Positions 8,700-23,379 of a DNA stretch of 24,529 nucleotides are shown here, in pieces. The notes below the pieces were generated by a model. The model was not told the DNA's origin. It saw only the letters and a program-made list of their open reading frames with translations, and searched no databases. The translations under genes were made by a program, and so were the position numbers. Positions within the stretch are counted from its first letter, which is position 1. The number at the start of each line of letters is the position of its first letter. The DNA comes from a virus. Location: the IMG/VR virus record IMGVR_UViG_3300022188_000054, positions 1 to 24,529 of that record, one strand, 5' to 3'.

Positions 8700-10004
8700 A
8701 TGGCGTTCCTCGATCCATACGATCTGGAAACTATGGGTAATATTCTCAACTGGCACCTTCTTTACAACTCCAATTTAGAGAGGCTACTTGACGCAATCGG
8801 TGCGCCTTGTTTCCAAGCTACAGCCGGTGAAAACCTAAGCGAAGGCCAAGTCGTATGTATTGACGCCTCCTCAGGTCAGGTTTATAAAGCGGATGCCGAC
8901 AACCCGGACAGAAGACCCGCTGTTGGAGTTGTGTATCAGGGCGCCAGCGCTGGGGGAACTGTCTGGGTGCAATTTGCAGGGAAGTGCTCCAAGTTTTCGG
9001 GACTGTCCGCGGGGGCTTTGTACTACTTGTCAACTTCGGCAGGTGAGATCACCACTACACCTCCAGCGTCTTATCGGCAGGTTATAGGGAGAGCAATTAA
9101 CTCTTCCACCATAGTGCTCAACTTAACCGCCGAGTTTAACGTCGCGGCGATAGACCACGGAACTCTTACGGGACTTTCGGATGACGACCACACACAATAC
9201 GTACACACTTCAACTGCTCGAACAATATCCGCTCAACACACTTTCAACCCCCCTTCCACGGGTGCTCCCTTTGTATTAGGCGCTAACGCGCAGGGACAGC
9301 TTGTAACGGGGTTGAATGCGGATCAGCTTGACGGGCAGCATGCATCCCACTTTCTCGCTGTAGACGGTTCCAATTCCCCAACCGCGGACATGGATTGGGG
9401 AGGACACAGAATAACGAACTTGGCCGATCCAACCGGAGCACAAGATGCTGCAACCAAAGCCTACGCGGACACAAAGGCGGACACAGATTTGAGTAACGTT
9501 GACGACACTACTGTGCTCAACAAGGTCAAAAACGTAGATGGGACAGGATCAGGACTTGACGCGGACCTACTGGATGGACACGATTCGTCCGATCAACCTG
9601 TCGCGGGTCAAATCCCGGTGCTGGACTCCAACGGGCACCTTAGATTACCTGAGCGGTTGATCGTGGGGTCTACAACGGCAGACCCACACTCGGTTTTGCA
9701 GTCTCAGGGGTCTCTCGCTGTCGCAGTCACCGCAATTACCATGAGTACCACTTTGGGAGCCACTCACTGTGTGGTCGCGGTCGACGCCTCAGGCGGAACG
9801 GTCACAGTAACGTTACCGGGAGCTTCAAACTGCGAAGGGCGCCTTTATGTAATCAAGAAGACCGATTCTTCTTCCTATGGTGTTACGATTGACGCTGGGT
9901 CTTCGACCATCGATGGAAATTCTTCCGTTTCTCTTTCGTCGCAGTGGAACTCCGTCACGATAGTGAGTGACGGGACCAACTGGCTAAAGATCGCAGAAAC
10001 GTAA
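8700..10004 (+). CDS. Phage tail fibre / virion surface protein (434 aa)
   Basis: Residues 40-145 resemble the small beta domain of DUF2190-type virion proteins (TAGENLSEGQVV, VYKADADNPDRRPAVGVV). Next are the classic fibre motifs DHGTLTGLSDDDHTQY (152-167), two copies of the 'ADxLDG' element (NADQLDGQHASHF near 206 and LDADLLDGHDSS near 286), and a short TKAYADTKADTDL helix. The end is a beta-structured tip (YGVTIDAGSSTIDG) common in phage fibre C-termini. A strong AAGGAGGT ribosome binding site lies 5-7 nt before the ATG. It is probably a second receptor-binding or side fibre, or a decoration fibre. Confidence 0.85.
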   Translation: MAFLDPYDLETMGNILNWHLLYNSNLERLLDAIGAPCFQATAGENLSEGQVVCIDASSGQVYKADADNPDRRPAVGVVYQGASAGGTVWVQFAGKCSKFSGLSAGALYYLSTSAGEITTTPPASYRQVIGRAINSSTIVLNLTAEFNVAAIDHGTLTGLSDDDHTQYVHTSTARTISAQHTFNPPSTGAPFVLGANAQGQLVTGLNADQLDGQHASHFLAVDGSNSPTADMDWGGHRITNLADPTGAQDAATKAYADTKADTDLSNVDDTTVLNKVKNVDGTGSGLDADLLDGHDSSDQPVAGQIPVLDSNGHLRLPERLIVGSTTADPHSVLQSQGSLAVAVTAITMSTTLGATHCVVAVDASGGTVTVTLPGASNCEGRLYVIKKTDSSSYGVTIDAGSSTIDGNSSVSLSSQWNSVTIVSDGTNWLKIAET

Positions 10005-10012
10005 AGGATACA

Positions 10013-10228
10013 ATGAACAGAAGTCTAGCGCAGCTGTCCTTACTTTTTATCAAGACCATCACAAGAGAGTATGACATTATGTTGCACGAGTACGCTGGAT
10101 GTCCGCGTTCCAACCTGGAGTACAATGAACTGGGGCTCCGCAAGGGTTGTCTTCTTTGCCTGCTCTTGAAGGCAATTGATGATGAGTTGAAAACCTCACA
10201 GGACCATAATTCGGGAGGTGTATCATGA
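10013..10228 (+). CDS. Unknown small protein (71 aa)
   Basis: AAAGGA precedes the ATG by 6 nt. The product is helical with three cysteines (GCPRSN at 28-33, GCLLC at 45-49) and no clear membrane segment. Its TGA overlaps the protease start as ATGA (10225-10228), which supports its reality and suggests coupled translation. No family is recognised. Confidence 0.6.
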   Translation: MNRSLAQLSLLFIKTITREYDIMLHEYAGCPRSNLEYNELGLRKGCLLCLLLKAIDDELKTSQDHNSGGVS

Positions 10229-11031
10229 GGCTCACAGAAGCGCAAAGAAAAGAGTTTTACGAAAAGGCCCTCTACCCTTGCGTGAGGGTCAGAACAAACA
10301 AATCGGGCGGATCTGGTCAAGTGATATGGTCCAACGAACGAGACGGAACGTTTGTGCTGACTTGCGAGCATGTGGTTGACGACGCGATCACCATCAAGGA
10401 AGAGTGGTCTTCGGTCCTTCAGAGGATGGTGAAGAAGGACGTTTTGAGCGAGGTTTACGTTGACTTTTTCAAGTACGACCTGAAAGACCGAGCAGTTGGT
10501 GCTGAAGAGATAAAAGCGGAGATAATTGCCTACGACAAGAACGAAGACCTCGCTCTCCTGAGACTGCTGGACCCCACACCTCGCAAATACGTCGCGAAGG
10601 TCGCACCAGATGACTACGAAGTGAAGTATTTCGAAGAAGTGGTTACTATCGGTGCTGCTCTGGGTCACGAACCAATCGCTACAGTGGGGAACATTTGTGG
10701 GTTTAAAGATGTGATAGACAACAGGGACTATATGCTCTCAACAGCCCCGTCAGTATTCGGTAACTCAGGAGGTGCCACCTTCGCAACAAAGGACTGGACC
10801 TTAATTGGGATGCCCGCCAGAATTAGCGTCATTCTCACGGGTTTTGCGGCGGATCCGATCACTCACATGGGCTATATCATTCCTTACTGGAGGATCAACA
10901 AGTTCTTCCGCGATCAGATGATGGACTTTCTGCTCGACCCCTCCGTGTCGTATGAGGAGTGCTTGAAGAGAAGGGAAGAGGCCAGAAAGAAGTCCGAGCT
11001 GGAATTACTTCTGAAAGAAGGGAAGAAATAA
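10225..11031 (+). CDS. Trypsin/HtrA-like serine protease (phage-encoded)
   Basis: The protein has 268 residues with a chymotrypsin-fold catalytic triad in the correct order: His49 in LTCEHVV, Asp108 in NEDLALLRL and Ser181 in GNSGG. There is no signal peptide, PDZ domain or membrane helix, so it should act in the cytoplasm or within the virion. The charged C-terminus (REEARKKSELELLLKEGKK) may mediate assembly. It sits directly before the holin and endolysin and after the fibre. Possible roles are maturing a structural protein, cleaving a host or defence protein, or helping lysis; the sequence does not decide. Phage prohead proteases are usually of other folds. Confidence 0.82.
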   Translation: MRLTEAQRKEFYEKALYPCVRVRTNKSGGSGQVIWSNERDGTFVLTCEHVVDDAITIKEEWSSVLQRMVKKDVLSEVYVDFFKYDLKDRAVGAEEIKAEIIAYDKNEDLALLRLLDPTPRKYVAKVAPDDYEVKYFEEVVTIGAALGHEPIATVGNICGFKDVIDNRDYMLSTAPSVFGNSGGATFATKDWTLIGMPARISVILTGFAADPITHMGYIIPYWRINKFFRDQMMDFLLDPSVSYEECLKRREEARKKSELELLLKEGKK

Positions 11032-11058
11032 ACCAGAGTAACGAGGAGGTGAACGTAC

Positions 11059-11526
11059 ATGATTGCTGGTGCAATCTTGGGGCTCGTCGGTTCAGTGGTT
11101 CCCGAACTGATTAAGATATGGAAGGAAAAGCAGGAGCACAAACAGGAATTGGAAATGCTCGAGCTACAGCTCAAGTACCAAAAGGAAATGGCACAGATTC
11201 GCGTGGCTGAAGCGGAAACGATGGCCGCGATCGAAATGGATAAAGCAGCCTACGAGTTCGCAAAGCCCGAACCAATAAGACCTACCGGCAAGTTCTGGGT
11301 TGACTTGCTACAAGTAATAGGGAACTTGTACAACCAAACAGTGAGACCTACGCTAACATACCTGATCGGAGCATGTTGGCTGATAGTCAAACTAGAACTG
11401 GCAAAACAGGCGGGTAGTTTGGCAACCGTTTGGACTCCGATGGACCAGGAGTTCGTTGCTTTGATTTTGACATTCTGGTTTGGTCGAAGGGCACTCAAGA
11501 GGACGTTTGGGAGGAAGGAGGGATGA
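11059..11526 (+). CDS. Holin, three-TM type (GTA-holin-like)
   Basis: The protein has 155 residues. An N-terminal hydrophobic helix (IAGAILGLVGSVVPELI) is followed by a long charged coiled coil (EKQEHKQELEMLELQLKY, to about residue 70). A conserved FWVDLLQVIGNLYNQTVRPTLTYL stretch then leads into two more membrane helices (about 98-118 and 131-145). This is the pattern of the Holin_3TM family of gene transfer agents and phages. AGGAGGTG precedes the ATG. Its TGA overlaps the endolysin ATG (ATGA), giving the usual holin-endolysin pair. It should form the membrane lesions that release the endolysin. Confidence 0.78.
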   Translation: MIAGAILGLVGSVVPELIKIWKEKQEHKQELEMLELQLKYQKEMAQIRVAEAETMAAIEMDKAAYEFAKPEPIRPTGKFWVDLLQVIGNLYNQTVRPTLTYLIGACWLIVKLELAKQAGSLATVWTPMDQEFVALILTFWFGRRALKRTFGRKEG

Positions 11527-11972
11527 CACCAAGATGTGTGGAACTCGTAAAACGATTTGAGGGATTTGTTCCACACATCTATCGGTGTCCTGCAGGATAT
11601 CCCACAATCGGATATGGACACGTGGTGAGACCTGGTGAGGAGGAGCTTTTCAAAGACGGAATTACAGAAGAGGAAGCGGAAAGATTGCTAATCACAGATT
11701 TGGCAAAAGTGGAACTAAAACTGTGGCCCCTGATAAAGGTCACGATACACCCGTGGATGATGGATGCTCTTATCAGCTTCTCGTTCAACGTCGGTCTCTA
11801 CGCCTTCAGAGCCTCCACCCTGCGCCGCAAACTGAACAGCAAGGATTTCGGTGACGCAGCGGATGAGTTTCTCAGATGGGTGTATGCGGGTGGGAGGAAA
11901 CTAAGGGGACTAGTAAGAAGGAGGAAAGCAGAAAGAGCGCTGTTTTTGGAAGGCTTGGAAGAAATGTTATGA
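11523..11972 (+). CDS. Endolysin, T4-lysozyme-type muramidase (GH24)
   Basis: The protein has 149 residues. Glu13 in LVKRFEGF is the catalytic acid, and PTIGYGHVV is the family signature. The active-site spacing is E-8x-C-5x-T: Glu13, Cys22 in place of the common Asp, and Thr28. This Cys variant is known from P1-type lysozymes and is compatible with activity. It has no signal-anchor sequence, so it needs the upstream holin. I chose the ATG at 11523, which overlaps the holin stop and follows AAGGAGGG, over the in-frame ATG at 11430. A perfect 13-bp inverted repeat lies in codons 4-19. The next gene overlaps by ATGA. Confidence 0.9.
   Translation: MTPRCVELVKRFEGFVPHIYRCPAGYPTIGYGHVVRPGEEELFKDGITEEEAERLLITDLAKVELKLWPLIKVTIHPWMMDALISFSFNVGLYAFRASTLRRKLNSKDFGDAADEFLRWVYAGGRKLRGLVRRRKAERALFLEGLEEML
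11532..11580 (+). repeat. Perfect 13-bp inverted repeat at start of endolysin gene
   Basis: The left arm AGATGTGTGGAAC (11532-11544) and right arm GTTCCACACATCT (11568-11580) are exactly complementary, separated by 23 nt. In mRNA this would fold into a stable stem beginning about 7 nt after the AUG, where it could slow initiation or early elongation of the endolysin. Confidence 0.8.
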
Positions 11973-12247
11973 GAGAGCAACGACCAAACTGTCCTGAGTG
12001 CGGTGCTCCAAATCCTGTTTCGCACGGTAACAGCTGGCGTTGCCGACAGTGCGGGCGTAAGTGGGTTAAGGTAAGGCACCCTCGCACACCTCTTCCCCCT
12101 GACCGCCCTCGTTGTCCAGAGTGTGGGGCTATCCCCACTTCGTCAGGAAGGGATTGGAGGTGCAATGTTTGTGGTAGGAGCTGGCGCAAAGTCTACCGAC
12201 GTCCACCCGTCCCCGAACCTGCTTCGACGGAGGTGGAAGTGTTATGA
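11969..12247 (+). CDS. Tandem double zinc-ribbon protein (92 aa)
   Basis: Two near-identical ribbons are spaced 40-41 residues apart: C8/C11 with C25/C28, and C49/C52 with C65/C68, each as CPECG followed by WRCxxCGRxW. The pattern resembles the zinc-binding N-terminus of IS1-type InsA and other nucleic-acid-binding ribbons, so it may bind DNA or RNA or act as a regulator. The start ATG at 11969 shares ATGA with the endolysin stop; an in-frame start at 11876 would run through the endolysin gene. The basic linker (RHPRTPLPPDRPR) suits nucleic acid contact. The end overlaps the next gene by ATGA. The two ribbons probably arose by internal duplication. Confidence 0.75.
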   Translation: MREQRPNCPECGAPNPVSHGNSWRCRQCGRKWVKVRHPRTPLPPDRPRCPECGAIPTSSGRDWRCNVCGRSWRKVYRRPPVPEPASTEVEVL

Positions 12248-13038
12248 GAAGATCTATCGCTTTTGTAGGTGACCTACACGTAGGAAGTCGCTTCGCTATC
12301 GCACCTGAAAACTACACGACACGTGAGGGGAACGTCCTCCGAGTCAATGAAGGGCAACTCACACTCTATAAGTATTTCCAAGACTTCTGTGAGAAGTGTG
12401 ACGAACTCGAAGTTGACACCATTTTCCTCATGGGAGATCTTGTGGAGGGCCCCAATCCGAGAGGGTTTGGGCGTAACTTGGTTATGGTCGATTTAAACGA
12501 CCAGATAAACATGGCTGTGGAACTGTTGCGCCCACTGTGTGAAGGGCGCAAAGTGTACGGCGTTGAAGGCTCCGGGTATCACGTCTTACCCGGTGGGGTG
12601 AGCGCTGATCAAACAGTGGTCCAGCTCTTAGGTGGCGAGTGGAAGGGGTCGGTGTCTGTGTGTCAGTTTGCGCCCTCCAAACTGGTCTTTCTGATTCTAC
12701 ACGGAACTGGAGGAGGCATTGTGTACCGCGCAACATCTCTCGATAGAGAGAACCTATTTGTGAACGCCGCCATTGGTATAGGGAAAATCCCCCCGATACA
12801 CGTGATCGTGAAGGCACACAGACACTTTTACCTTTACATGGAGCAGAACAACCAGTACATGCTCCACATTCCCTGTTGGTGTACTTGGGTACCGAATAAA
12901 GTTTATCTCAGGTTGTATGGTAGGATGCAACCGGATGTTGGTGGTTGCATCCTACAGATTACGGATGACGATCGGATTGTTCACCATGTTTTTCTTTATG
13001 ACCCGCCTCGCATAGCGGATCAAAAGGAAACCTTATGA
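12244..13038 (+). CDS. Calcineurin-like metallophosphoesterase
   Basis: The protein has 264 residues with the metallophosphoesterase metal-site motifs in order: GDLH (9-12), GDLVEG (64-69), GSGYH (109-113, in place of GNHD/E), HG (153-154) and AHRH (191-194, in place of GHxH). Phage members of this superfamily often carry such variant third motifs, so activity is plausible but the usual Asn is missing. Substrates in the family range from DNA ends to cyclic nucleotides and phosphoproteins, and the sequence does not tell which applies. No fused nuclease cap is visible. It is coupled to both neighbours by ATGA. A perfect 13-bp inverted repeat lies at codons 226-238. Confidence 0.82.
   Translation: MRRSIAFVGDLHVGSRFAIAPENYTTREGNVLRVNEGQLTLYKYFQDFCEKCDELEVDTIFLMGDLVEGPNPRGFGRNLVMVDLNDQINMAVELLRPLCEGRKVYGVEGSGYHVLPGGVSADQTVVQLLGGEWKGSVSVCQFAPSKLVFLILHGTGGGIVYRATSLDRENLFVNAAIGIGKIPPIHVIVKAHRHFYLYMEQNNQYMLHIPCWCTWVPNKVYLRLYGRMQPDVGGCILQITDDDRIVHHVFLYDPPRIADQKETL
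12920..12955 (+). repeat. Perfect 13-bp inverted repeat inside metallophosphoesterase gene
   Basis: GTAGGATGCAACC (12920-12932) pairs exactly with GGTTGCATCCTAC (12943-12955) around a 10-nt loop. No U-tract follows, so it is not a standard terminator. It could be an mRNA processing or stability stem, a protein-binding site or chance. Confidence 0.8.
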
Positions 13039-13208
13039 TGAAGGTCGAAAGCGTTCTTTGTTTTGTTGTCGCTGAGGGTTATACCCTAAAGGAGGACGAC
13101 GAGGAAGAAGACAAGTACGTCTTGGTCAGAGAATTTGACGGGAAACCAATCGCAAAGGTTCGACTGGAGGTAGAGATTCTCGAGGACCAATACGAAGCGA
13201 CAGCGTAA
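13035..13208 (+). CDS. Small acidic protein (57 aa)
   Basis: The start ATG (13035, or the adjoining 13038) overlaps the metallophosphoesterase stop. The product has an acidic centre (KEDDEEEDKY) between two beta-type segments (VESVLCFVVAEGYTL, KPIAKVRLEVEIL). It lies tightly between two operon genes, so it is probably real, with unknown function. Small acidic phage proteins often inhibit host enzymes, but that is only a guess here. Confidence 0.55.
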   Translation: MMKVESVLCFVVAEGYTLKEDDEEEDKYVLVREFDGKPIAKVRLEVEILEDQYEATA

Positions 13209-13221
13209 AGGAGGTACGCGT

Positions 13222-14190
13222 GTGAAGGTCTTAGTTTGTGGTGCAGGCGGCTTTATCGGAGGTCACCTCGCAAAGTTCCTGTACAAAAAGGGTCTCTATG
13301 TGATTGCGGTTGACATCAAGTGGGACGGCTTTATCCCAGAACCCTTCTGTCACGAAAAAATAACAGGCGATTTGCGCGAATTCGAGATATGTATGGCGCT
13401 CACCAAAGGTGTCGATTGGGTTTTTCAGTTGGCCGCCGACATGGGTGGAATTGGATACATTACTCAAGTGGGTGCGGACATAATGAAGAACAACGCGCTC
13501 ATCAACATCAACATGCTGGAAGCCTCCACTCGAAACGGTGTTAAACGCTTTTTCTTTTCGTCCTCTGCGTGTGTTTACCCAGAGTACAAACAACTCGATC
13601 CCAACGTCACTGCGTTGAAGGAAGAAGACGCAATACCTGCGCAGCCCGATCAATTTTACGGGTGGGAAAAACTCTTCACAGAGAAATTGTGTGAAGCCTA
13701 TAAAAGGGACAAAGGCTTGGATGTGCGCGTGGCGAGGTTCCACAACATTTACGGTCCCTACGGAGTCTACGAGGGTGGTAGGGAGAAGGCACCTGCGGCC
13801 TTATGCAGAAAAGTGGCGCTAGCGAGGGACGGCGACGAGATTGAGATTTGGGGAGACGGGAAGCAAACGCGTTCCTTCTGTTACATCGACGACTGTGTGG
13901 AAGGGATCTGGAGGCTCATGAACTCGGACTACGACCAACCACTGAACATTGGGTCGGACGAGTTAGTCGCGATCGAAGACCTCGCAAAAATGATTATCGA
14001 AATCTCAGGGAAAAAACTCAGGCTAAAATACGACCTCTCGAAACCACAAGGAGTCAGAGGGAGGAACTCTGACAACACCAAAATCAAACAGGTTTTGGGT
14101 TGGGCGCCTTCTACTCCTTTAAGGGTGGGGATTGAGAAAACCTACAGGTGGATCGAACAACACATAAAGGAGCGCCTCCGCAAAGGATGA
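13222..14190 (+). CDS. GDP-mannose 3,5-epimerase-like NAD-dependent epimerase
   Basis: This is a 322-residue short-chain dehydrogenase/epimerase of extended type. GAGGFIGG (7-14) binds NAD. The GDP-mannose 3,5-epimerase hallmarks are unusually complete: QLAADMGGIGYI, FFSSSACVYPE with Cys117, YGWEK with Tyr146/Lys150, RFHNIYGPYG, GGREKAPAA with Lys189, WGDGKQTRSF, LNIGSDE and GVRGRNSDN. In plant GME the equivalent Cys and Lys do the acid-base epimerisation that converts GDP-D-mannose to GDP-L-galactose or GDP-L-gulose. The GTG start follows AAAGGAGGT by 5 nt. It is the first nucleotide-sugar gene of the window and probably feeds the glycosyltransferases downstream. Its TGA overlaps the next ATG. 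Confidence 0.88.
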   Translation: MKVLVCGAGGFIGGHLAKFLYKKGLYVIAVDIKWDGFIPEPFCHEKITGDLREFEICMALTKGVDWVFQLAADMGGIGYITQVGADIMKNNALININMLEASTRNGVKRFFFSSSACVYPEYKQLDPNVTALKEEDAIPAQPDQFYGWEKLFTEKLCEAYKRDKGLDVRVARFHNIYGPYGVYEGGREKAPAALCRKVALARDGDEIEIWGDGKQTRSFCYIDDCVEGIWRLMNSDYDQPLNIGSDELVAIEDLAKMIIEISGKKLRLKYDLSKPQGVRGRNSDNTKIKQVLGWAPSTPLRVGIEKTYRWIEQHIKERLRKG

Positions 14191-14654
14191 GCGAAACACT
14201 AAAAATACACCCCAGAGTCACCTACCTGAAATGGACGTCAGATAACGAATACTCTACCTTTTGTCTCCTCAACACAACCAAAGACGGAGAGAAAGTCGAA
14301 GTGTGCATCAGGAAAAAAGGGGAACAGTCCTTTCACGTTTGGATGACAAAAGAAAAGTTTTGGGAATGGCTCGGCGAAGGAGAGATTCTCGAGGTAGTAC
14401 CAGTGGAACACCCTGTTGAAGTACCGAAGCAAAGGAGGTGCGTACACTGTGGTGAGTATCTCCAGTTTAAGGCTGACCGCGGTTGGGTTCACCCTGAGGG
14501 AGGTCTCCACATGCAAAAGTGTTTGTCGTGCGGGTGGAAGGGAGCACCTCACCCACCTGCTATAGTCTGCCCCAATTGCGGTGCGCGCAGAATTTGCATT
14601 GATCACACAGCACAGGAGGGCAAAGATGGAACACCTAAAGCAGAAGGGTTCTGA
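14187..14654 (+). CDS. Zinc-ribbon protein with N-terminal beta domain (155 aa)
   Basis: Residues 1-80 have no recognised domain (TYLKWTSDNEYSTFCLLN, HVWMTKEKFWEWL). The C-terminal half has two likely zinc sites: C85/C88 with C112/C115, and C128/C131 with C137/H140 (CPNCGARRICIDH). The start at 14187 shares ATGA with the epimerase stop. It probably contacts nucleic acid or a protein partner; no specific function can be given. It overlaps the DUF3310 gene by 29 bp. Confidence 0.7.
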   Translation: MSETLKIHPRVTYLKWTSDNEYSTFCLLNTTKDGEKVEVCIRKKGEQSFHVWMTKEKFWEWLGEGEILEVVPVEHPVEVPKQRRCVHCGEYLQFKADRGWVHPEGGLHMQKCLSCGWKGAPHPPAIVCPNCGARRICIDHTAQEGKDGTPKAEGF

Positions 14655-14853
14655 GCACTATAAGGTGGACGGGGTCGAACCGATTGATCTGATGCGAAGC
14701 GGAGGCATGCTTCGGGATTTTTGTATCGGTAACATCATCAAGTACGCTTTTCGTAACCGCTCGCAACTCGGGCGCCCAATCTCAAAGAAAGACATGGACA
14801 AAATAATACACTACGCGGAAATTTTGAAAGCGTTGGCGGACGAAGAAACTTGA
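14626..14853 (+). CDS. DUF3310-family phage protein (75 aa)
   Basis: The DUF3310 core is clear: HYKVDGVEPIDLM, then FCIGNIIKYAFRN, then KKDMDKIIHYAEIL. The family is widespread in tailed phages and sometimes labelled nucleotide-kinase-like, but its role is unproven. I chose the ATG at 14626 because AGGAGGG lies 5 nt upstream; an in-frame ATG-like start at 14581 lies deep in the previous gene. This gene is good evidence that the sugar genes on both sides belong to a phage. Confidence 0.85.
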   Translation: MEHLKQKGSEHYKVDGVEPIDLMRSGGMLRDFCIGNIIKYAFRNRSQLGRPISKKDMDKIIHYAEILKALADEET

Positions 14854-14876
14854 CTTCCCGAACCATCACGTAAAAA
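14850..14876 (+). promoter_or_regulatory. Weak candidate promoter before the poly-Arg-tail gene
   Basis: TTGACT (14850-14855) and TAAAAA (14871-14876) are 15 nt apart, a short spacer, in one of the few small gaps in the operon. The gene at 14885 would start just downstream, with GGAG before its ATG. The case is weak. Confidence 0.25.
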
Positions 14877-14884
14877 ATGGAGAC

Positions 14885-15829
14885 ATGAAAGGAATCGTAG
14901 TTGCACCAAAGAACGTCAACCCTAAGGTCACCTCATTTGTGTGTCCCCGCGGAATCGGGTTGGGTGTTTTCGTTACGTTCCGTGACGCTTTTCTGAAGCG
15001 CAAAGAAGAAATCTTGCGAACACTTCGTCGCGTTGGTTCCATCGACAAAGTCGCTCATGTGTACCAGAAGTTAGGAGACGTTACGTGGATCCAATCAAAC
15101 TACGCTCAGTACTGTGTTAAGCGTTTTAACAAAGAACGAGTCCCTCAAGCACTGCACGAAATCTTCAGTCAAATCGAAGAGGAGATAAAGCGCGCAGAAC
15201 CACAAGACTTTGTACCAGAGAGGGATGAAGCGATCAAACTGTTCGCCATACATCTCACTTCTAGGTTCACACCCACGACTGAGTCTAACGCCGCTCTTAC
15301 TCTCTACGACATAGTCGACACTGACTCAGGTTTGATATTCTTTGAAGTTGCAGTCGACCGCGCCAACTTGACACAACATAAACTTTTGGAGCAATTCAAA
15401 CGCGCCACGGACGAGGAGGAAGTAAGGGCTCTGAAGATCGTCACTTGGAGAGGAAAGCGAGGGGCGTGGGTAACGACCAAAACAGGACAAAAAGTTTTCA
15501 TTGAGGAAGAGAAAATCCGACAGTACCGAAACTGGACGGATTCACTCATACGAGCGGGAGAGCTTCTCAGCTTGGTTAGTCTCGCCGATTTCGGACTGTA
15601 CGCCGCCTCTGACATGACTTGGATGACCTTCAGAAAGATGGCGAAACGCGCTGCCGCGGCGGGAAAGGGAAGGCGAGCGAGTGTGTATCTCCGTATCGCT
15701 AGACTTCTTGAAACCATCAGGATCCGTGCGTTCGAGTTCAACGTACTAACGCTTATGGCTGGGGTCGGTTCACTCGCTGTGGGCCTCCTCGGAAGGTACT
15801 TTGCGACAAGAAGGCGTCGTCGCAGGTAA
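14885..15829 (+). CDS. Unknown protein with WVT-GQK motif, C-terminal membrane helix and poly-Arg tail (314 aa)
   Basis: The N-terminal half is mixed and basic (LRTLRRVGSIDKVAHVYQKL). Residues 193-211 (GAWVTTKTGQKVFIEEEKI) carry a short motif of the kind seen in phage virion and toxin proteins (GGWVTIxGxxVFI). The helical C-terminal part has an Ala-rich segment and a hydrophobic helix (about 284-302) that ends in ATRRRRRR. The same WVT-GQK-FI motif and an Arg-rich C-terminus occur in the ADP-ribosyltransferase-like protein at 17502-18812. It could be an internal virion protein delivered to the host or an envelope-associated protein. GGAG precedes the ATG. Confidence 0.65.
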   Translation: MKGIVVAPKNVNPKVTSFVCPRGIGLGVFVTFRDAFLKRKEEILRTLRRVGSIDKVAHVYQKLGDVTWIQSNYAQYCVKRFNKERVPQALHEIFSQIEEEIKRAEPQDFVPERDEAIKLFAIHLTSRFTPTTESNAALTLYDIVDTDSGLIFFEVAVDRANLTQHKLLEQFKRATDEEEVRALKIVTWRGKRGAWVTTKTGQKVFIEEEKIRQYRNWTDSLIRAGELLSLVSLADFGLYAASDMTWMTFRKMAKRAAAAGKGRRASVYLRIARLLETIRIRAFEFNVLTLMAGVGSLAVGLLGRYFATRRRRRR

Positions 15830-15863
15830 CAACTTACGTTGAAACCTTTGGCGGAGGGTCTCG

Positions 15864-16202
15864 ATGAAGGGACTCAATGATACCGTTAAGGAGTACGTTA
15901 GGCTTGTTGAAGGGGCGAGAAAACGAGGCGAAGAGATCATCGAGGTACTCACCGAGGTTCTAAAACCTTTTATCCCTGACGTTTGCTTTACCCTCGGGTG
16001 GGACGACTCAGGTACCGACGTTATATGTTTGTGGTCGAACACATACATGAGCAGAACAGAAGGCGTGAGTCTCCTTGATATCTTGAGAGAAGAACTCGGC
16101 GAGCTCGCTCCTTACATAGATTGTCTCACGTCGATTTGCGTCCCAGAGGAAATTGCTAGTAAGGTGAGGAAGGCTTTACAAGAGGTCGTCACCCACTCTT
16201 AA
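15864..16202 (+). CDS. Unknown protein coupled to PaaK/CapK-like enzyme (112 aa)
   Basis: GGAGGG precedes the ATG. The product is alpha/beta with helices at both ends (MKGLNDTVKEYVRLVEGARK; EEIASKVRKALQEV) and a central VCFTLGWDDSGTDVICLW strand pair. It is not an acyl carrier protein, since no DSL-type attachment motif occurs. Its TAA overlaps the adenylating enzyme ATG (TAATG at 16200-16204), suggesting a 1:1 partner or linked function. Confidence 0.65.
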   Translation: MKGLNDTVKEYVRLVEGARKRGEEIIEVLTEVLKPFIPDVCFTLGWDDSGTDVICLWSNTYMSRTEGVSLLDILREELGELAPYIDCLTSICVPEEIASKVRKALQEVVTHS

Positions 16203-17482
16203 TGGTACACAAAGACCTCACCAACCCCCATTACGTTCGGTGGAAAAGTTTTCTCTCTCGCGCCCAGCATTGGTCAGTCGACCAAATCAAAACCTGGCAA
16301 CTGCAAAAACTACGCGAGGTAATCTCGAGGGCTCTCCTCACCCCAGGGTACAGGAGGAAGTTCGAGACAGCCGAGCTAAAAACCCTGGAAGACATTCGAA
16401 ACTTCCCCACCACCAGCAAGTACGAGATGATGAAGAACGTCGAAGATTTCACCTTGGAGTGTGGCGACTATGTTACCACCGGAGGCACGACAGGGCATCC
16501 CTTTGGTTTTTACCGCTCATGGTTGGCGTTTTCGCGCGAACTCGCCTCCAAAGCTCACCAGTACGAACGGGTAGGTTGGAAGGAAGGTGACCGTCAAATC
16601 GTGTTCAGAGGTTTGGTCCTGGACAATTTGACCGTCGAGGTTCCTGAGTTGTTCGAGCTGCGGTGCTCCTCCTACCATCTGGACGAAGAACACTTATCGC
16701 TGTTTGTTGAGGCGGCATGGAAATATCGACCTTTGTGGTTGAAGTGTTACCCCAGTGCCGGGTACCTTTTGGCGAAGCTGTTGGAGGCAACTGGGTTGGA
16801 ATTCCCGCCTCTGAAAGGCATACTGCTTGCCTCCGAAAACGTGTATGATTTCCAGCTGGAGAAGCTCAAAAAAGTGTTTGGTTGTACGATTTTCTCACAT
16901 TACGGACATTATGAGTGTGCCGCACTAGCTGGCTGGTGTAAGTACACAACCGATTACCACGTGCTCCCATTCTACGGTTATGTTGAGCTTCTGCGCCCCG
17001 GAACCGACACACCAGTTACTGAACCCGGAGAAGTGGGCGAGATTGTCGCAACCTCTTTTATCATGGACGCGACACTGTTTGTTCGTTACCGTACTGGGGA
17101 CTTGGCAGTTTACAAAGGTGAGGGGTGTCCCAAGTGTGGATTACCTTACCAGATCTGGGAGAGGGTCGAAGGCCGTGAACTCGAGTTCATCGTCACCTCA
17201 AAAGGCAGGTTAATCCCGCTCACGTGCATCAACATGCACGATGATGTGTTTGACGCCTTTTGGCAATTTCAACTGCGTCAAAGGACCCCGGGGGTAGTTG
17301 AGTTTCACTTCGTTCCACGCCTCGAGGGTAAAGCGCTGGAAAAGGGAATCGAGAAAGCGCGCAAAGCACTATCCGCAAAACTACCGGACACCCACCTTTT
17401 ATTCAGAAAGGTCAACGAGATACCGAGAACTGGTCGGGGAAAACACAAGTTTTTGGTGCAAGAGCTAAAGTTACCTTTTTAA
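16202..17482 (+). CDS. PaaK/CapK-like adenylate-forming enzyme
   Basis: The protein has 426 residues with the acyl-adenylate signatures of phenylacetate-CoA-ligase-like proteins: VTTGGTTGHPFGFYRS (from 91), YGHYE (234-238), RYRTGD (295-300) and a C-terminal RTGRGKHKF (409-417). The CPKCG pair (309-313) is where family members often carry 'CxCGR'. Members in capsule and polysaccharide clusters (CapK-type) are thought to activate a carboxylate as an acyl-AMP, possibly to acylate or amidate a sugar. With the dehydrogenase downstream making a uronate, amidation of that uronate is one possibility, but this is inference. It is convergent with cassette B, 19 nt apart, with no visible terminator between them. 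Confidence 0.83.
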   Translation: MVHKDLTNPHYVRWKSFLSRAQHWSVDQIKTWQLQKLREVISRALLTPGYRRKFETAELKTLEDIRNFPTTSKYEMMKNVEDFTLECGDYVTTGGTTGHPFGFYRSWLAFSRELASKAHQYERVGWKEGDRQIVFRGLVLDNLTVEVPELFELRCSSYHLDEEHLSLFVEAAWKYRPLWLKCYPSAGYLLAKLLEATGLEFPPLKGILLASENVYDFQLEKLKKVFGCTIFSHYGHYECAALAGWCKYTTDYHVLPFYGYVELLRPGTDTPVTEPGEVGEIVATSFIMDATLFVRYRTGDLAVYKGEGCPKCGLPYQIWERVEGRELEFIVTSKGRLIPLTCINMHDDVFDAFWQFQLRQRTPGVVEFHFVPRLEGKALEKGIEKARKALSAKLPDTHLLFRKVNEIPRTGRGKHKFLVQELKLPF

Positions 17483-17501
17483 GGTACCAAAGGAGACTCG
17501 C

Positions 17502-18812
17502 TTAGGTCCTTGGGTAAATCTTTCTGCGCCTTCTCACCCTCGAGTACTGCTTGATGACTTCCACGGTCCTCTTAGGAGAAACCTCCAAAAGGAACACATC
17601 TGGATCAGGGAGGCAAAGATAACAGTGCTCGATGTTTCGCAAAAAAGGACTCCCAAGTTCTCTGGTTCTCACGAGAGGGGCGATGTCCTCAAGGGGAATA
17701 AAGTAGTGGAAAACGTCGAACTTGAGAGGGTCAATTCGGCGAGGAATCACACCGCCGTACATTTTCTTCTGCTGAAGGAGTAAGCGGAAGTATTTTTCGG
17801 GGAGCAAGAATACTGAGTTGTCGTTGTACAGTGCGATGTAGTCAGTGTATCGAAGGACCGACTCCCAAGTCAACTCGTTTCGTGAGATCTTCTTCAGCGC
17901 TTTCTGTCTGAGGACTTTGGTGTTGTACCCCGCGAGTGTTTCAGTTCGCGCGAGAAAAGTGAGGTTCAGAACGCCATAGTCGGTTTCAACCTCCGCCACT
18001 CCTTTCGGGTACAGTTCAACAAACCGTGGGATTACAATGTCACGCGGCTTCACGACCTGCTGTTTCACTAAAAGTTCTTGTCCCGTACCCTTTCCCGCGA
18101 TTCTCCAAGAGAAGAAAATGTTGGAAATCGGTACCTCCTTTTTCACCACGAGTCCAGCGCCGCTCCTCTCAATCGTTGCGCGGTCTGCACCGGCGATCGC
18201 GTGAATCCGTGCCAAGTCTCTACTCTCGGTGAAAACGGTCAAGTTGTAGGTCTTTAGACCCACGCCGCGCATCAGATTTCGCATTACGCGCAACGAGCTC
18301 TCGGCATTGATCGCTCGATACAGGGTTATCTTGTTAGTGTTTGGGTACAACTTACGGTAGACTGCTTGGGTTAACGCCCAAAGGTCACACAGGTAACTAT
18401 GAGTAAGGGGATCTAACTTAATCTGCTGGTTTGCGAGAGCGCGTGCGGCGCTCAGATCAATTTTCTCGGACCAAAACCACCACAGTATTCTGTCGGCCTT
18501 CCGTACCACGTAAGGAGGGTACATGCTGCGGAGCAATCTGAAGGCGGGAATGCACGGAATCTCCTTGCCAAGAATCGTCTCGTGCACCACGCGGTTTAAG
18601 TTCGCCCTGGTGAGTTTCTCGGACCAGAACTCAACGCGACTTTCGAGAAGCTTGAAGTCCCTTGGGTACGAAAGCTTAAAGATTTTGTCTAGGGGGATAA
18701 AGCGTTTCTGCCCCGCAATAGTTACCCAGAATCCTTCCTTGATCTCGTTCCCGATTCGCAGGCGTACGATCTTCCTCCACGCCCCGAACAGGTAAATTAC
18801 CCTCTCGGTCAC
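17502..18812 (-). CDS. Putative ADP-ribosyltransferase-fold protein, second gene of minus-strand cassette B (436 aa)
   Basis: Residues 26-43 (EGFWVTIAGQKRFIPLDK) carry the WVT-GQK-FI motif shared with the protein at 14885. Residues 145-262 fit the R-S-E type ADP-ribosyltransferase core: ITLYRAIN with Arg166, then LTVFTESRDLARIHA (191-205) as the 'STS' strand and helix, and GTGQELLVKQ with Glu246. It lacks an ExE motif, so arginine specificity is not implied. The C-terminus is Arg-rich (SRVRRRRK). If active it would transfer ADP-ribose from NAD to a host target, as T4 Alt/Mod proteins do. The GTG start overlaps the 59-codon gene's TGA (GTGA), indicating coupling. The fold assignment is tentative; that this is a gene is clear. 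Confidence 0.7.
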   Translation of the reverse strand: MTERVIYLFGAWRKIVRLRIGNEIKEGFWVTIAGQKRFIPLDKIFKLSYPRDFKLLESRVEFWSEKLTRANLNRVVHETILGKEIPCIPAFRLLRSMYPPYVVRKADRILWWFWSEKIDLSAARALANQQIKLDPLTHSYLCDLWALTQAVYRKLYPNTNKITLYRAINAESSLRVMRNLMRGVGLKTYNLTVFTESRDLARIHAIAGADRATIERSGAGLVVKKEVPISNIFFSWRIAGKGTGQELLVKQQVVKPRDIVIPRFVELYPKGVAEVETDYGVLNLTFLARTETLAGYNTKVLRQKALKKISRNELTWESVLRYTDYIALYNDNSVFLLPEKYFRLLLQQKKMYGGVIPRRIDPLKFDVFHYFIPLEDIAPLVRTRELGSPFLRNIEHCYLCLPDPDVFLLEVSPKRTVEVIKQYSRVRRRRKIYPRT

Positions 18813-18988
18813 TTTTCCTGCTCCTTGATTTTCGCGAGAGCTTTTTTGAGAAACTCTCTGTCGAAGCGTTCAACAATCTTGTCGAGCTCGTTGGAATCGA
18901 CCCAGCAAATCAAGTCAACAGGATACGCTTTTGCTTTTGGGTCACGAAACCAAACGAACCATTCGAAACTGAGATCATCAAGGTTCAT
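18809..18988 (-). CDS. Small protein, first gene of minus-strand cassette B (59 aa)
   Basis: The frame reads MNLDDLSFEWFVWFRDPKAK on to a charged helical end (ERFDREFLKKALAKIKEQEK). Its TGA overlaps the GTG of the ADP-ribosyltransferase-like gene. The start has no clear Shine-Dalgarno, and a TTGAAA-N17-TACAAG promoter ends 6 nt before the ATG, so the transcript is probably leaderless. By position it could be an immunity or partner protein for the larger gene, but nothing shows this. Confidence 0.6.
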   Translation of the reverse strand: MNLDDLSFEWFVWFRDPKAKAYPVDLICWVDSNELDKIVERFDREFLKKALAKIKEQEK

Positions 18989-18994
18989 GTCTTT

Positions 18995-19023
18995 CTTGTA
19001 ACAGAGAGGAACGAGGTTTTCAA
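18995..19023 (-). promoter_or_regulatory. Predicted leaderless promoter of cassette B
   Basis: On the minus strand: -35 TTGAAA (19023-19018, 5/6), a 17-nt spacer, -10 TACAAG (19000-18995, 4/6), then 6 nt to the ATG at 18988. It has the same geometry as the cassette A promoter. It lies in the 36-nt gap between divergent genes and almost touches the DUF362 start at 19025. Confidence 0.55.
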
Positions 19024-19024
19024 G

Positions 19025-20335
19025 GTGAGAGTCGCGATCACGAGAGTGAAACCACTTTATCCGTCAAAGGCACCTTTTCATCCGAGCGAAAAGTACCCGG
19101 AGATGAACTCTCCAGTCCTTACCGAGTCAGACAACTTTGTGTACGGGGGAGTCAGAGAAATTTTTCGTTTACTGGGTTACGATGCCAAACACTACGGTAC
19201 GAAAGACTGGAACCCGTTAGGGGAAGTTATCAAACCAGGAGATACAGTCTTGGTTAAACCGAACTTGGTTTTCTCGAGATCGAGGAACATAGAAGCGACT
19301 GTAACACATCCTTCTGTGGTGCGCGCGGTTGTCGACTACGCACTAAAAGCAATTGGACCGACAGGGAAAGTCATAGTGGCGGACGCACCTCAGTACAATT
19401 GCAACTGGAGTGAGCTTCTCGATCGCACCGGTTTGAGCTCCTTAATTGAGTGGTATGGGTCAAAAGTAGAGTTTCTCGATCTACGACCTTATTGGAGCGA
19501 GGACTTCCATTGGTACTCGAGGATCAAACCGTTGGCGGGTGATCCACTTGGCGAGGAAACTATCGACTTAGGAACAAAGTCAAAATTGGAAGAATTGAAT
19601 TACCTTGATAGGTTGTATGGCGCGGCACCTTGGGTAAAAGAGACCCGCGAGTTCCACAAAAAAGGTACACACAAGTACGTGGTGTCTCGCACCTTTCTCA
19701 AGTCAAACGTTCTGATCCTTTTACCCAAGCTCAAGACACACAAGAAAGTCGGGATAACTTGCTGTGCAAAAAACCTGGTTGGAATTGTGACAAACAAAAA
19801 CTGCGTTCCTCATTTCCGAGTGGACGTAGACCAATATCCTCCAAACATTCCACGGCGGTCAAAACTTCTCTCGCGACTCGAGATGTTTATGTACGAGAAG
19901 TTCTTGGGCAGGCGCAAGTGGATATGCGACCTCCTGTATCGGGTTTTGTACGGGGTTTGGTTCAAAGATCTGCTAGGTCTCAAACTTCATCCTCACGACC
20001 GTGGAGGGTGGTACGGAAACGACACACTATGGCGCGCAATCCATGACCTACTGTACATCCTGCACAATTACGGTCCGCGAAGGGTTGTCTGCTTAGTCGA
20101 CGCGGTTGTTGCGGGGGAAGGTGAGGGTCCTCTAAACCCAACACCTAAACCTTTGGGACTTTTAATCGGGGGGTCTTCGATTGAAGCGGTTGACTGGGTC
20201 ACCGCTTCTCTGGTGGGGTTCGATCCCAAGAAGTTAAGATTCAAAGAACCAGACGAGAAAGTGGAGGTAGTCGGAGATGTCCCAAGCAAACCTATCAAAC
20301 TCAAGCCCCCAAGCGGGTGGATCGGATATCTTTAG
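19025..20335 (+). CDS. DUF362-family protein
   Basis: The protein has 436 residues. DUF362 hallmarks are VLVKPNLV (75-82), THPSVVRAVVDY (94-105), GKVIVADAPQ (114-123), LLPKLKTHKKVGIT followed by CCAKNLVG (from about 237), and GLLIGGSSIEAVDW near the end. DUF362 proteins often lie in polysaccharide and cofactor gene clusters, and no general reaction is established. No ferredoxin-type CxxCxxC cluster is present. The GTG start has GAGG 8 nt upstream (19013-19016). It opens the right-hand sugar operon and is divergent from cassette B; I could not see a convincing + strand promoter. Confidence 0.82.
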   Translation: MRVAITRVKPLYPSKAPFHPSEKYPEMNSPVLTESDNFVYGGVREIFRLLGYDAKHYGTKDWNPLGEVIKPGDTVLVKPNLVFSRSRNIEATVTHPSVVRAVVDYALKAIGPTGKVIVADAPQYNCNWSELLDRTGLSSLIEWYGSKVEFLDLRPYWSEDFHWYSRIKPLAGDPLGEETIDLGTKSKLEELNYLDRLYGAAPWVKETREFHKKGTHKYVVSRTFLKSNVLILLPKLKTHKKVGITCCAKNLVGIVTNKNCVPHFRVDVDQYPPNIPRRSKLLSRLEMFMYEKFLGRRKWICDLLYRVLYGVWFKDLLGLKLHPHDRGGWYGNDTLWRAIHDLLYILHNYGPRRVVCLVDAVVAGEGEGPLNPTPKPLGLLIGGSSIEAVDWVTASLVGFDPKKLRFKEPDEKVEVVGDVPSKPIKLKPPSGWIGYL

Positions 20336-21620
20336 CCGGGTCTCGGTCATTGGGCTGGGACGCCTAGGCGCACCTTTTGCTCTCTGCTGTGCCTCACGAG
20401 GTATTGAAACCATTGGGGTGGACAAAAACGAAGTTCGGGTTCTTCAGCTCAACTCAGGCGATTTTCCCTGGTACGAACCCAAAGCGCAAGATCTTCTCAC
20501 CTCGCACCGTTCTTTGTTGCACTTCACCACTCAGTACCACGAGGCAATCGAAAAAACCAACATCTCGGTCATCTTGACCCCCACTCCAAGCAAGCGAAGC
20601 GGAGAATTTTCTTCCGTTCACGTCACAGACGCGATTTCCTCATTGATCGACGCGCAAATTGAAGCTCGGAAACCAATACACTTGTACATTGTAGGTAGCA
20701 CGCTTTTCCCAGGGGCATCTCAAACCGAGATCCTTCCTTTGTTCCAGCGACTGGAAGAGAAAGGCCTTCAGTACCTCTACGCGTACTGCCCCGAGTTTGT
20801 CGCTTTAGGTTCAGCGATCGACGACTTTCTCAAACCGAGTTTTGTAGTGATCGGGGAAAAGGACAGTGTCTCAGGGGAAGCAGCACAAGCTTTCTACCAA
20901 CAGCTCCTGCTAAAAGAAGCGCACATCATCCGGACCAACCTGATTACTGCGGAGCTCGCCAAAGTCTTCTTGAACGTATTCCTCACTATTAAAATCTCTT
21001 TTGCAAACCTCGCAGGAATTCTGTGTGAAATGTTTCCCGGTGCGGACGTAGATGTAGTAACTCACATTTTGGGGAAGGACCCCAGAATCTCCCCGAAGTT
21101 TCTCAAGTGCGGTGCACCTTTCGGAGGGACATGTTTTCCGCGAGACGTAAACGCCTTCAGGGCCTTGATGTCAAAGTTCAACCAACATTTGCCCTTCCCC
21201 GAAGCCGTTCAAAAAGTTAACGAACTTGTGTTGTGGTATCTCGTGCGAAGGGTCGTCGAAACGGGGAAGCGCCGCGTTTGTGTGCTTGGTACTTCCTTTA
21301 AACCGGGAACGTCAGAAACCACTGAGTCACCCTCCCACAAACTGATCGACCTACTGCTTGCACACGGATTGCAAATTGTCGTGAGCGACCCCCTCGCGTT
21401 GGAACGCACAAGAAACATGTTTGGCGACCTTATTCAGTACGAAGAAGATCCAAAAGACGCAATCAATCGTTCCGAGGTCGTCATAGTAATGGTTCCACAC
21501 AAGGAATACAAAAAACTCTATCGTGCGTTCACATCACAACACATTGTGTTTGACGTCTGGAGAATCTACAGGGGAAAAGAGCTCCAGTGCGCCTATAATG
21601 GTTTCGGCCTTGGGACATGA
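20277..21620 (+). CDS. UDP-glucose/GDP-mannose dehydrogenase family enzyme
   Basis: The protein has 447 residues. It has an NAD-binding VIGLGRLGAPFA (GxGxxG at 26-31), ILTPTPSKRSGE, YCPEF, AELAKVFLN with Lys229 and Asn233, and the catalytic cysteine in GGTCFPRD (Cys286). The C-terminal domain has VCVLGTSFKPGTSETTESPS, the family's second signature. It oxidises an NDP-hexose twice to the uronate. UDP-glucose, GDP-mannose and UDP-N-acetyl-aminosugars are all possible substrates. The start at 20277 overlaps the DUF362 gene by 59 bp; GGAGG lies 10 nt upstream and no later in-frame start keeps the Rossmann strand. It is coupled to the next gene by ATGA. Confidence 0.88.
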   Translation: MSQANLSNSSPQAGGSDIFSRVSVIGLGRLGAPFALCCASRGIETIGVDKNEVRVLQLNSGDFPWYEPKAQDLLTSHRSLLHFTTQYHEAIEKTNISVILTPTPSKRSGEFSSVHVTDAISSLIDAQIEARKPIHLYIVGSTLFPGASQTEILPLFQRLEEKGLQYLYAYCPEFVALGSAIDDFLKPSFVVIGEKDSVSGEAAQAFYQQLLLKEAHIIRTNLITAELAKVFLNVFLTIKISFANLAGILCEMFPGADVDVVTHILGKDPRISPKFLKCGAPFGGTCFPRDVNAFRALMSKFNQHLPFPEAVQKVNELVLWYLVRRVVETGKRRVCVLGTSFKPGTSETTESPSHKLIDLLLAHGLQIVVSDPLALERTRNMFGDLIQYEEDPKDAINRSEVVIVMVPHKEYKKLYRAFTSQHIVFDVWRIYRGKELQCAYNGFGLGT

Positions 21621-22651
21621 AAGTCGCTTTTATAAAGCAACACTGGGACGTATTTGGTCCCTGGTCGAGTGTTCCCTGGCAAGATTGGGAAACTCTCTTT
21701 AAGTTTTGGCCTGGGAAAGCCTCGTTGTGGGAAGCAACGTGCCTACTGAAAGCCGACTGGTACGTAATTCCACAACAAACATCAAACTGGTACATCCAGG
21801 AAGTGATAAAGTACAGGCTCAAGCTCCTTACAGAGAAATACGTCACCAATATTACAAAAACTGACGAACTCCCCTTGCACCAATACGACATTGTGATCAC
21901 TCTCGATCCTATTCTCCCTCACCTTGTGGTTCCGCCTGGCGTTGTCTTTGCATATTTCTGCAACGAGAACAGCGATCCTAACTACATTGCTTCCTTGCGA
22001 AAACCCTTTGGGAAGTACGATTTGTTTCTCGCACACGCTCTGGACGCGCCAAATGACTTCGACCATCTCCCCGCTGCAGTCTCCTTCCCGTATCCTCGAC
22101 ATCCAAAACTGGTGCGCAAGCTGTTTGCGAAACACAAAGAAGAAAAAGTTTGGGTTGAATGGAGAACGCTCACAACGCTTGCGCGTACGGAGCTATACGG
22201 TCCAAAGGCGGAAGGCGTACTGAATGACCTACAGAAAAAGCTGAAGTGCAAGACGGTATGCTACAGCAGAGTTAACAGGTCCCCTTACAGTATAACCGAC
22301 CCACCCGCGTTTGGGGACGCAAAAACCTATCTCCAACAATTGGGGACATGTAAATACTACATCGCGGTTGGTCGGAAAGGTGGCGCAGGACAAGGCATTG
22401 TTGACGCAGCGTCCGCAGGGTGTTTGTGTATCGGGGACAAGACACGTCCTTATCACCGCATTATCTGTTACCCCGATATGTTGTGTGACAGCATCGAAGA
22501 GGCGATCCAGAAGTTTCGCAAACTGCACGAAGACTCTCGATTGCAAAAGAAAGTTCGAACCTGGCAGGACATTAAGCTGTTTGACGAGTTCGTAAAACGA
22601 CCCTTGAGGCTTCTGAAAAAAGCGGTAAGACTGAAACGAGGGAACGCGTGA
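21617..22651 (+). CDS. GT-B-type glycosyltransferase
   Basis: The protein has 344 residues. The N-terminal half has FGPWSSVPWQDWETLFKFW and LLKADWYVIPQQ, then YDIVITLDP and GVVFAYFCNENSD. The C-terminal half has the donor-side pattern YYIAVGRKGGAGQGIVDAAS, then SAGCLCIGD and a final charged helix. This is the shape of GT4-like or 'exostosin-like' GT-B transferases, although the usual GT4 EX7E motif is not clear. ATG overlaps the dehydrogenase stop (ATGA), and its TGA overlaps the next GTG (GTGA). Donor and acceptor are unknown. Confidence 0.65.
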   Translation: MKVAFIKQHWDVFGPWSSVPWQDWETLFKFWPGKASLWEATCLLKADWYVIPQQTSNWYIQEVIKYRLKLLTEKYVTNITKTDELPLHQYDIVITLDPILPHLVVPPGVVFAYFCNENSDPNYIASLRKPFGKYDLFLAHALDAPNDFDHLPAAVSFPYPRHPKLVRKLFAKHKEEKVWVEWRTLTTLARTELYGPKAEGVLNDLQKKLKCKTVCYSRVNRSPYSITDPPAFGDAKTYLQQLGTCKYYIAVGRKGGAGQGIVDAASAGCLCIGDKTRPYHRIICYPDMLCDSIEEAIQKFRKLHEDSRLQKKVRTWQDIKLFDEFVKRPLRLLKKAVRLKRGNA

Positions 22652-23379
22652 TTAGCGTAGGGACAGCTCCCAAGCGGTTCGTCGGGAAGCTTGCGAAGCT
22701 CCAAGAACTCGCGATACGAAGCTGGTTTGAGTTCACCGACGACATAATTTTGTTCGCAAAGTTTGTGCCTCCACTTGAAGGGGTACGTGTTTTCGAGGTG
22801 AAAACAAGCGACAGGTCCGACGCTCCCATTGTAAGCGAGTTGTTCAAATCTCTGGATTGCCTTGGTACTCACTCAGTTTTAATGTACACAAATGCAGACA
22901 TCGTCTTTCTAGGCGGGGTTGAGAAAGCGGTTCGATCGGTTCTTAATCGGACGGAGAAAAACTTCCTGATTGTAGGGCAACGGTGGGATTGCGATTGGGA
23001 AGACACAATGACGTTGGAGGATATACGAAGGGCGCCCAAAAAGCTTCACGCGCCAACAGGGATTGATTACTTCATCTTTCCCAAAGGCTTTTGGGGTAAA
23101 ATCCCACCTTTTGTGTTAGGTCGAACTTGCTGGGACAACTGGCTTCTTTCGGATGCGCTCAGACGCGGTGCGTTCGTCGTCGACGCAACCCAATGCATTT
23201 GGGCGGTCCACCTAAACCACGATTGGTCACACCTCAAGGGAGGGAAGGAAGAAGCATGGTCGGGACCTGAGGCAATGTTCAACCGTTCGCTGCTCACGCG
23301 CGAGGAGCTAGAACGTGGAAGAATTGACCGCACAAAATGGATCCTAACCTCAGAAGGGGAGGTGATCGAGCGTGGATGA
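22648..23379 (+). CDS. GT-A-like glycosyltransferase (TNADI/WDNW family)
   Basis: The protein has 243 residues. LMYTNADIVF (79-87) fills the place of the DxD metal motif. The later GIDYFIFPKGFWG, VLGRTCWDNWLL and VHLNHDWSHLKGG followed by GPEAMFN are hallmarks of a family of small GT-A transferases common in polysaccharide and metagenomic clusters. The GTG start shares bases with the preceding TGA. It should transfer a sugar to a surface glycan or virion protein; the substrate is unknown. It overlaps the GT2 gene by 8 bp. Confidence 0.75.
   Translation: MISVGTAPKRFVGKLAKLQELAIRSWFEFTDDIILFAKFVPPLEGVRVFEVKTSDRSDAPIVSELFKSLDCLGTHSVLMYTNADIVFLGGVEKAVRSVLNRTEKNFLIVGQRWDCDWEDTMTLEDIRRAPKKLHAPTGIDYFIFPKGFWGKIPPFVLGRTCWDNWLLSDALRRGAFVVDATQCIWAVHLNHDWSHLKGGKEEAWSGPEAMFNRSLLTREELERGRIDRTKWILTSEGEVIERG

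Follow-up and report, generated by a model that had tools for sequence, protein, structure and literature searches.

The window analysed here is the whole of IMG/VR record IMGVR_UViG_3300022188_000054 (24,529 bases), a record that may itself be a fragment. On its plus strand, positions 11523–11972 encode a 149-residue endolysin of the GH24 phage lysozyme type, which matched PF00959 (E = 3.7e-40; 137.6 bits against a curated cut-off of 22.3) and the endolysin family phrog_7 (E = 1.1e-51). Its AUG lies at 11523–11525, and codon 13, GAG at 11559–11561, specifies a glutamate that showed no variation across the 10 sequences of alignment A1 and that we take, by the GH24 family, to be the catalytic residue. 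Residues 16–20 form a segment that varies across the family, Tyr20 excepted, and the motif of eight relatives (L244, L245 and L247–L252) reads YEG. The upstream gene (11059–11526, plus strand) ends in a TGA that overlaps the endolysin ATG by 4 nt (ATGA, 11523–11526), an arrangement that makes the two a candidate coupled pair and that the earlier note on this DNA had correctly recognized. The product of the upstream gene is likely a holin, as that note had assumed from sequence, although the family that it matches, phrog_6637, has no assigned function and its score against GTA_holin_3TM (PF11351) was 14.9 bits (E = 0.038), under the cut-off of 24.8. The upstream gene of the relative L240 also scored under this cut-off (19.2 bits, E = 0.0018), and GTA_holin_3TM was absent from the matches listed for L246, L243, L252, L019 and L124. 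A Shine–Dalgarno-like GGAGGA (11510–11515, plus strand) precedes the endolysin AUG. Within the window, Rfam gave no match at the gathering score and no tRNA was found. Directly 5′ of the probable lysis genes lies a gene for a trypsin-like protease (10225–11031; PF13365, E = 1.1e-15).

The endolysin coding sequence opens with a perfect inverted repeat. Its 13-nt arms, AGATGTGTGGAAC at 11532–11544 and GTTCCACACATCT at 11568–11580, are 100% complementary and are spaced by a 23-nt loop (11545–11567); the first arm begins 7 nt past the AUG, and the loop contains the codon for Glu13, all of which agrees with how the repeat had been described. The predicted fold extends beyond that description by six outer pairs, in which GACACC (11525–11530, beginning with the G of the AUG) pairs with GGTGTC (11584–11589), parted from the inner stem by a one-base/three-base internal loop. 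The whole hairpin comprises 19 pairs with a predicted energy of −30.6 kcal/mol over 69 nt, and the stem is predicted to retain −17.5 kcal/mol at 60 °C. Judged as sequestration of the kind found at T4 gene e, the G alone of the AUG is paired, and the Shine–Dalgarno-like motif lies outside the hairpin and is left unpaired by it.

None of 200 dinucleotide shuffles was as stable as the 69-nt hairpin (z = −6.03), whereas the 161-nt context around it gave a z of only −1.04, with 25 of 200 shuffles as stable. Against codon-shuffled versions, the comparison that had been proposed for it, the hairpin was unusual: 4 of 20,000 synonymous resamplings with the codon usage of the window folded as stably as the hairpin segment, as did 64 of 20,000 permutations of synonymous codons within the gene and 211 of 20,000 permutations that also kept dinucleotides. 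Of 1,777 windows scanned across 28 genes, the hairpin had the lowest z (−4.61, followed by −3.98), and among the 28 gene starts the runner-up had a z of −2.07. Perfect repeats within genes (arms of at least 13 nt, loop of 3–60 nt) numbered two in the window against a mean of 0.026 in 1,000 resampled genomes; 26 of these genomes had at least one, none had two and none had one less than 20 nt from a gene start. Across 1,652 ORFs from 241 non-redundant fetched loci there were 10 repeats with arms of at least 13 nt, none of them within 20 nt of the start, and a single synonymous resampling of the same ORFs gave three, one of which was within 20 nt of the start. Because the hairpin segment and the window length were picked after the hairpin had been seen, these significance figures are somewhat optimistic; the hairpin is unusual at a level of roughly 0.3–1% for one chosen place, and the place was chosen after the fact.

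Some of this structure is dictated by the protein. Codons of residues 1–3 and 21–23 form the outer pairs, and synonymous permutation would be expected to yield 5.17 of the six; the encoded sequence imposes most of the outer stem. The inner stem has 13 pairs compared with 10.36 expected (P = 0.014). The hairpin thus illustrates that the outer part of a striking stem can follow from the protein sequence.

The phage is only distantly related to the annotated phage collection, in which the best endolysin identity listed was 47.8%. Single-protein searches gave a best relative that was only 51% identical, and searches of viral contigs with the upstream, tail, protease or phosphoesterase protein alone found no relative. 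Endolysin alignment queries, with the best 80 loci taken for each, yielded a clade with 13 distinct starts and 59–78% endolysin identity. These are the 13 relatives counted here; L248, which is the same as L247 over the stretch, was left out of alignment A3, and L241 and L160 are one contig, as are L242 and L161, and L246 and L162. L240 and L241 share the upstream gene (78% and 79%) and the phosphoesterase gene (76% and 71%) with the window, and L240, the nearest relative, has 67.6% nucleotide identity over the endolysin gene. Among the best 80 loci of each query there was no relative above 78% amino-acid identity, so that the comparison bears on older rather than recent selection.

None of the 13 relatives has the hairpin stem; they keep 5–10 of its 19 pairs and 3–7 of the 13 inner pairs. 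In the alignment of 14 sequences, 47.0% of cells were paired (shuffles, 45.4%; as high in 47 of 500), seven pairs had changed on both sides compared with 7.0 in shuffles, and RNAalifold returned no consensus pair. The conserved pairing and compensatory base changes that the earlier note had named as a check were therefore not found in these relatives, with double changes at the level of shuffles. On the evidence of the 13 relatives, the hairpin is probably lineage-specific. The 3′ arm is the more diverged side: it matches the relatives at 2–7 of 13 positions (mean identity 0.27, compared with 0.52 among the relatives), whereas the 5′ arm matches at 7–12 of 13 and has an ordinary mean identity (0.73 compared with 0.71), and divergence in the loop and flanks is also ordinary. 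The 4-nt overlap with the upstream ORF is kept in nine of the 13 relatives; elsewhere, L242 has a 1-nt overlap, L243 a gap of 2 nt and L253 a gap of 39 nt, and L245 has no long ORF ending near the endolysin start. Because these nine relatives have the overlap without the hairpin, the conserved feature is the overlap and not the hairpin.

Two further candidates were rejected. A conserved stem in a shifted register (L245 and L247–L252) forms all 10 inner pairs, but 7.8–8.7 of these are expected from the protein (P = 0.02–0.19) and the seven relatives are one lineage. For a mobile or repeated element, the hairpin's 12-nt arms at 10–40-nt spacing occurred in no viral contig, and the 5′ arm occurred in none of 238 fetched loci besides the window's own.

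Structure at the start is no family trait of endolysins. In a first look, based on codon usage across each locus and on relatives that included redundant ones, 10 of 54 relatives had z below −2 and four below −3, and across 30 viral loci the endolysin starts had a mean z of −1.06 compared with −0.17 for 124 other starts. This apparent excess vanished when each cluster contributed one sequence and codons were permuted within the gene. Of 186 anchored loci, we removed 80 that lacked a Shine–Dalgarno-like motif and 31 that lacked a start; the 75 kept fell into 48 clusters including the window, and in 47 clusters the mean start z was −0.01 and 0.03, compared with 0.09 and 0.20 for 104 control starts. 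Without the motif filter (266 anchored loci, 42 dropped and 224 kept), 114 clusters had a mean start z of −0.18 (P = 0.10), with seven below −2 and two below −3, and structure was stronger in the mid-gene segment 240–309 (mean −0.38, P = 0.001) than at the start. The start in the window ranked third of 115 in this unfiltered set, behind L124 and L243.

At 37 °C, opening of the endolysin initiation region was predicted to cost 19.2 kcal/mol, the highest value of 28 starts and nearly tied with gene 1916 (19.1); at 60 and 75 °C it ranked second. When 11509–11538 was held open in the model, as by a ribosome at the upstream UGA with an assumed footprint, the stem was gone; with 11509–11535 held open, nine inner pairs persisted. 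In this model, ribosomes translating the upstream gene could free the start of the endolysin gene. Of the suggested effect of ribosomes on the hairpin, the physical part is supported, in that the stem unfolds in the model under a ribosome halted at the upstream UGA, whereas selection for the hairpin is not. A delay of the endolysin relative to the holin, which had been drawn from it, does not follow: if the upstream ribosome opens a hairpin in cis, the dependence of the endolysin on the upstream gene and the ratio of the two would change, with no reason for a change in timing.

At T4 gene e, the nearest precedent, an RNA helix where the lysozyme gene begins cuts synthesis 100-fold on early transcripts (PMC3014915), and the window hairpin resembles it as an RNA helix at a phage lysozyme start that would limit initiation. 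In T4 the 5′ strand of the helix precedes the gene, and late-promoter transcripts lack it (PMC3014915), whereas both strands of the window hairpin lie in coding sequence and its Shine–Dalgarno-like motif is free. Promoters in the window were sought by consensus scan only. For MS2 lysis and f1 gene IX, ribosomes on the upstream gene open a downstream start that RNA structure limits (PMC12548453); the window is like the MS2 coat–lysis and f1 VII–IX pairs in having a start predicted to be limited by structure and openable from the upstream gene, but the coupling in those systems is experimental, whereas that in the window is modelled, for a structure absent from relatives. The modelled opening by upstream ribosomes fits the view, presented in that review, that coupling works through RNA unfolding. 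A screen that the review cites, in which coupling was weaker where structure was predicted just 3′ of the upstream stop, speaks against the hairpin as a coupling device. The 4-nt overlap, kept in most of the relatives, is like that of termination–reinitiation at ATGA (PMC6728339); what sets the window apart from the plain case is that its relatives have the overlap without the hairpin. Among the open-access papers that full-text searches listed, judged by title and the opening of the abstract, none described a hairpin at the endolysin coding start for this group.

Two accounts of how the repeat arose are compatible with the overall explanation that we favour below. The first, that chance point changes alone made it, is quite possible, and we hold it tentatively. 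At least one such in-gene repeat was found in 26 of the 1,000 resampled genomes, the 1,652 ORFs of other fetched loci contain 10, and no mutation cluster was seen relative to L240, from which the 3′ arm differs at six of 13 positions, a level met by 117 of 431 windows. The presence of two such repeats in one 24.5-kb record, found in none of the 1,000 resampled genomes, counts against chance. The second perfect 13-bp inverted repeat (12920–12955; 14 pairs in the fold, −23.4 kcal/mol) sits in the middle of the gene at 12244–13038, which had no Pfam match and which we take to be phosphoesterase-like, and it is absent from L240 and L241.

The other account, which we find doubtful, is that a template switch in replication rewrote the 3′ arm by copying the 5′ arm in reverse-complement form, in the manner of a quasipalindrome and with no selection on the RNA. 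It would account for divergence on the 3′ side beside an ordinary 5′ arm, and a gapped comparison with L240 at the 3′ arm revealed a common GTTCC with a one-base shift. The nine of 13 differences from L241 are a level met by only 19 of 431 windows, and the second repeat lies in the same record. Perfect inverted repeats were also 1.7 to 3.3 times as frequent in the ORFs of the 241 non-redundant fetched loci as in one synonymous resampling (139 and 81 for arms of at least 10 nt, 57 and 21 for at least 11, 24 and 8 for at least 12, and 10 and 3 for at least 13). The process is documented (PMC8794818, PMC8604942 and PMC7202029), and the window is like the hairpins described there in having a perfect stem in coding sequence with one arm more diverged; it differs in that its nearest comparison, L240, is no close ancestor and shows no mutation cluster at that arm. 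The lack of a cluster relative to L240 tells against a template switch, as do window-specific changes at the 3′ arm that are equalled in 115 of 432 windows and quasipalindromic matches at only two of 13 positions in L240 and L241. For the second repeat these matches were 8 of 13 (L240) and 7 of 13 (L241), with no mutation cluster at its 3′ arm.

On balance, we consider it probable, with moderate confidence, that the hairpin is young and lineage-specific, was most likely not selected as a regulator and is tolerated through the overlapping start. The outer stem would arise almost free from the encoded protein, and the inner stem would have arisen when the segment coding for residues 16–20 came to match that coding for residues 4–8. 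The ATGA overlap would let ribosomes finishing the upstream gene unfold the hairpin, which may be tolerated because the endolysin start overlaps the upstream stop. Any physical effect would be to hinder independent initiation of the endolysin and to make its synthesis depend more closely on translation of the gene before it, probably the holin gene. In favour of an incidental hairpin we counted the lack of the stem and of any consensus pair in the relatives that mostly keep the overlap, the protein-forced outer stem, the diverged 3′ arm, the modelled opening, a second repeat that is likewise absent from L240 and L241, and the finding that start structure is no family trait. Against it we counted a position where a hairpin could matter, its first rank among the 1,777 windows, the lack of start-near arms of at least 13 nt in all 1,652 other ORFs (one in the resampled control), and the separate start folds of L243 and L252 described below. 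A conserved regulator of lysis timing is not borne out, given a stem found in none of the 13 relatives. We take the hairpin to be real, unusual and ordinary in kind, with a function that is at most putative. As it stands, the main lesson is that a perfect hairpin can be conspicuous, sit where it might matter and yet be confined to one lineage.

It is rather unlikely, in our judgement, that the hairpin was instead selected within this lineage, closing the start on messages untranslated from upstream, keeping the endolysin in step with the upstream gene and guarding against early synthesis. The stem is favoured by codon choice more than the protein requires, as the gene-internal permutations and the excess of inner pairs indicate, the opening cost is the highest of 28 genes by a narrow margin, T4 gene e (PMC3014915) and MS2 lysis (PMC12548453) provide precedents, and L243 and L252 have separate start folds. 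The pairing is missing in the 13 relatives, though, more permutations are as stable once dinucleotides are kept, the general excess of start structure failed to replicate, and the hairpin sits just past the upstream stop, where structure accompanied weaker coupling in the screen cited in PMC12548453. If functional, it would add a further case of a phage lysozyme gene in which RNA closes the start and translation from upstream opens it.

A broader proposal, which we regard as improbable, is that endolysin starts of this clade repeatedly gain start-closing hairpins of differing sequence (in the window, in L243 and in the L245–L252 group), with structure outliving sequence turnover, so that the endolysin would strictly need upstream ribosomes. 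In L243 (1100–1153) the AUG itself lies within a long stem, with 3 of 2,000 permutations as stable, and L252 has a start fold of its own, different from that of the window, with 27 of 2,000 as stable; row L298, which started from an incorrect codon, was excluded from these tests of relatives. The statistical basis is weak: with one value per lineage and the window excluded, the Fisher P value was 0.027, and 0.38 without L243. If hairpins do turn over in sequence, column-by-column covariation tests would miss them.

An RNase III-type processing or decay site within the endolysin message is highly improbable: a 19-pair stem is in principle long enough for RNase III, but no Rfam family reached threshold in the window, cleavage there would break the message and the stem is unconserved. 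A terminator was rejected, as there is no U-run 3′ of the stem and a consensus scan of 10000–13500 gave 4 compared with 3.9 in shuffles. The endolysin of L124, which ranked ahead of the window in the unfiltered set, bears a different hairpin, with about 15 pairs, at codons 12–23 (L124:1465–1533; z = −4.1, 1 of 2,000 permutations as stable). Further along the record, 13222–24241 holds what we take, from the translations, to be a cellular-like gene run with epimerase, UDP-sugar dehydrogenase, glycosyltransferase and DUF362-like types. The protein make-up of the 28 window genes (IVYWREL 0.42, charged minus polar 7.1) presumably points to a moderately thermophilic host, which by the formula relating IVYWREL content to growth temperature would grow at about 60 °C.
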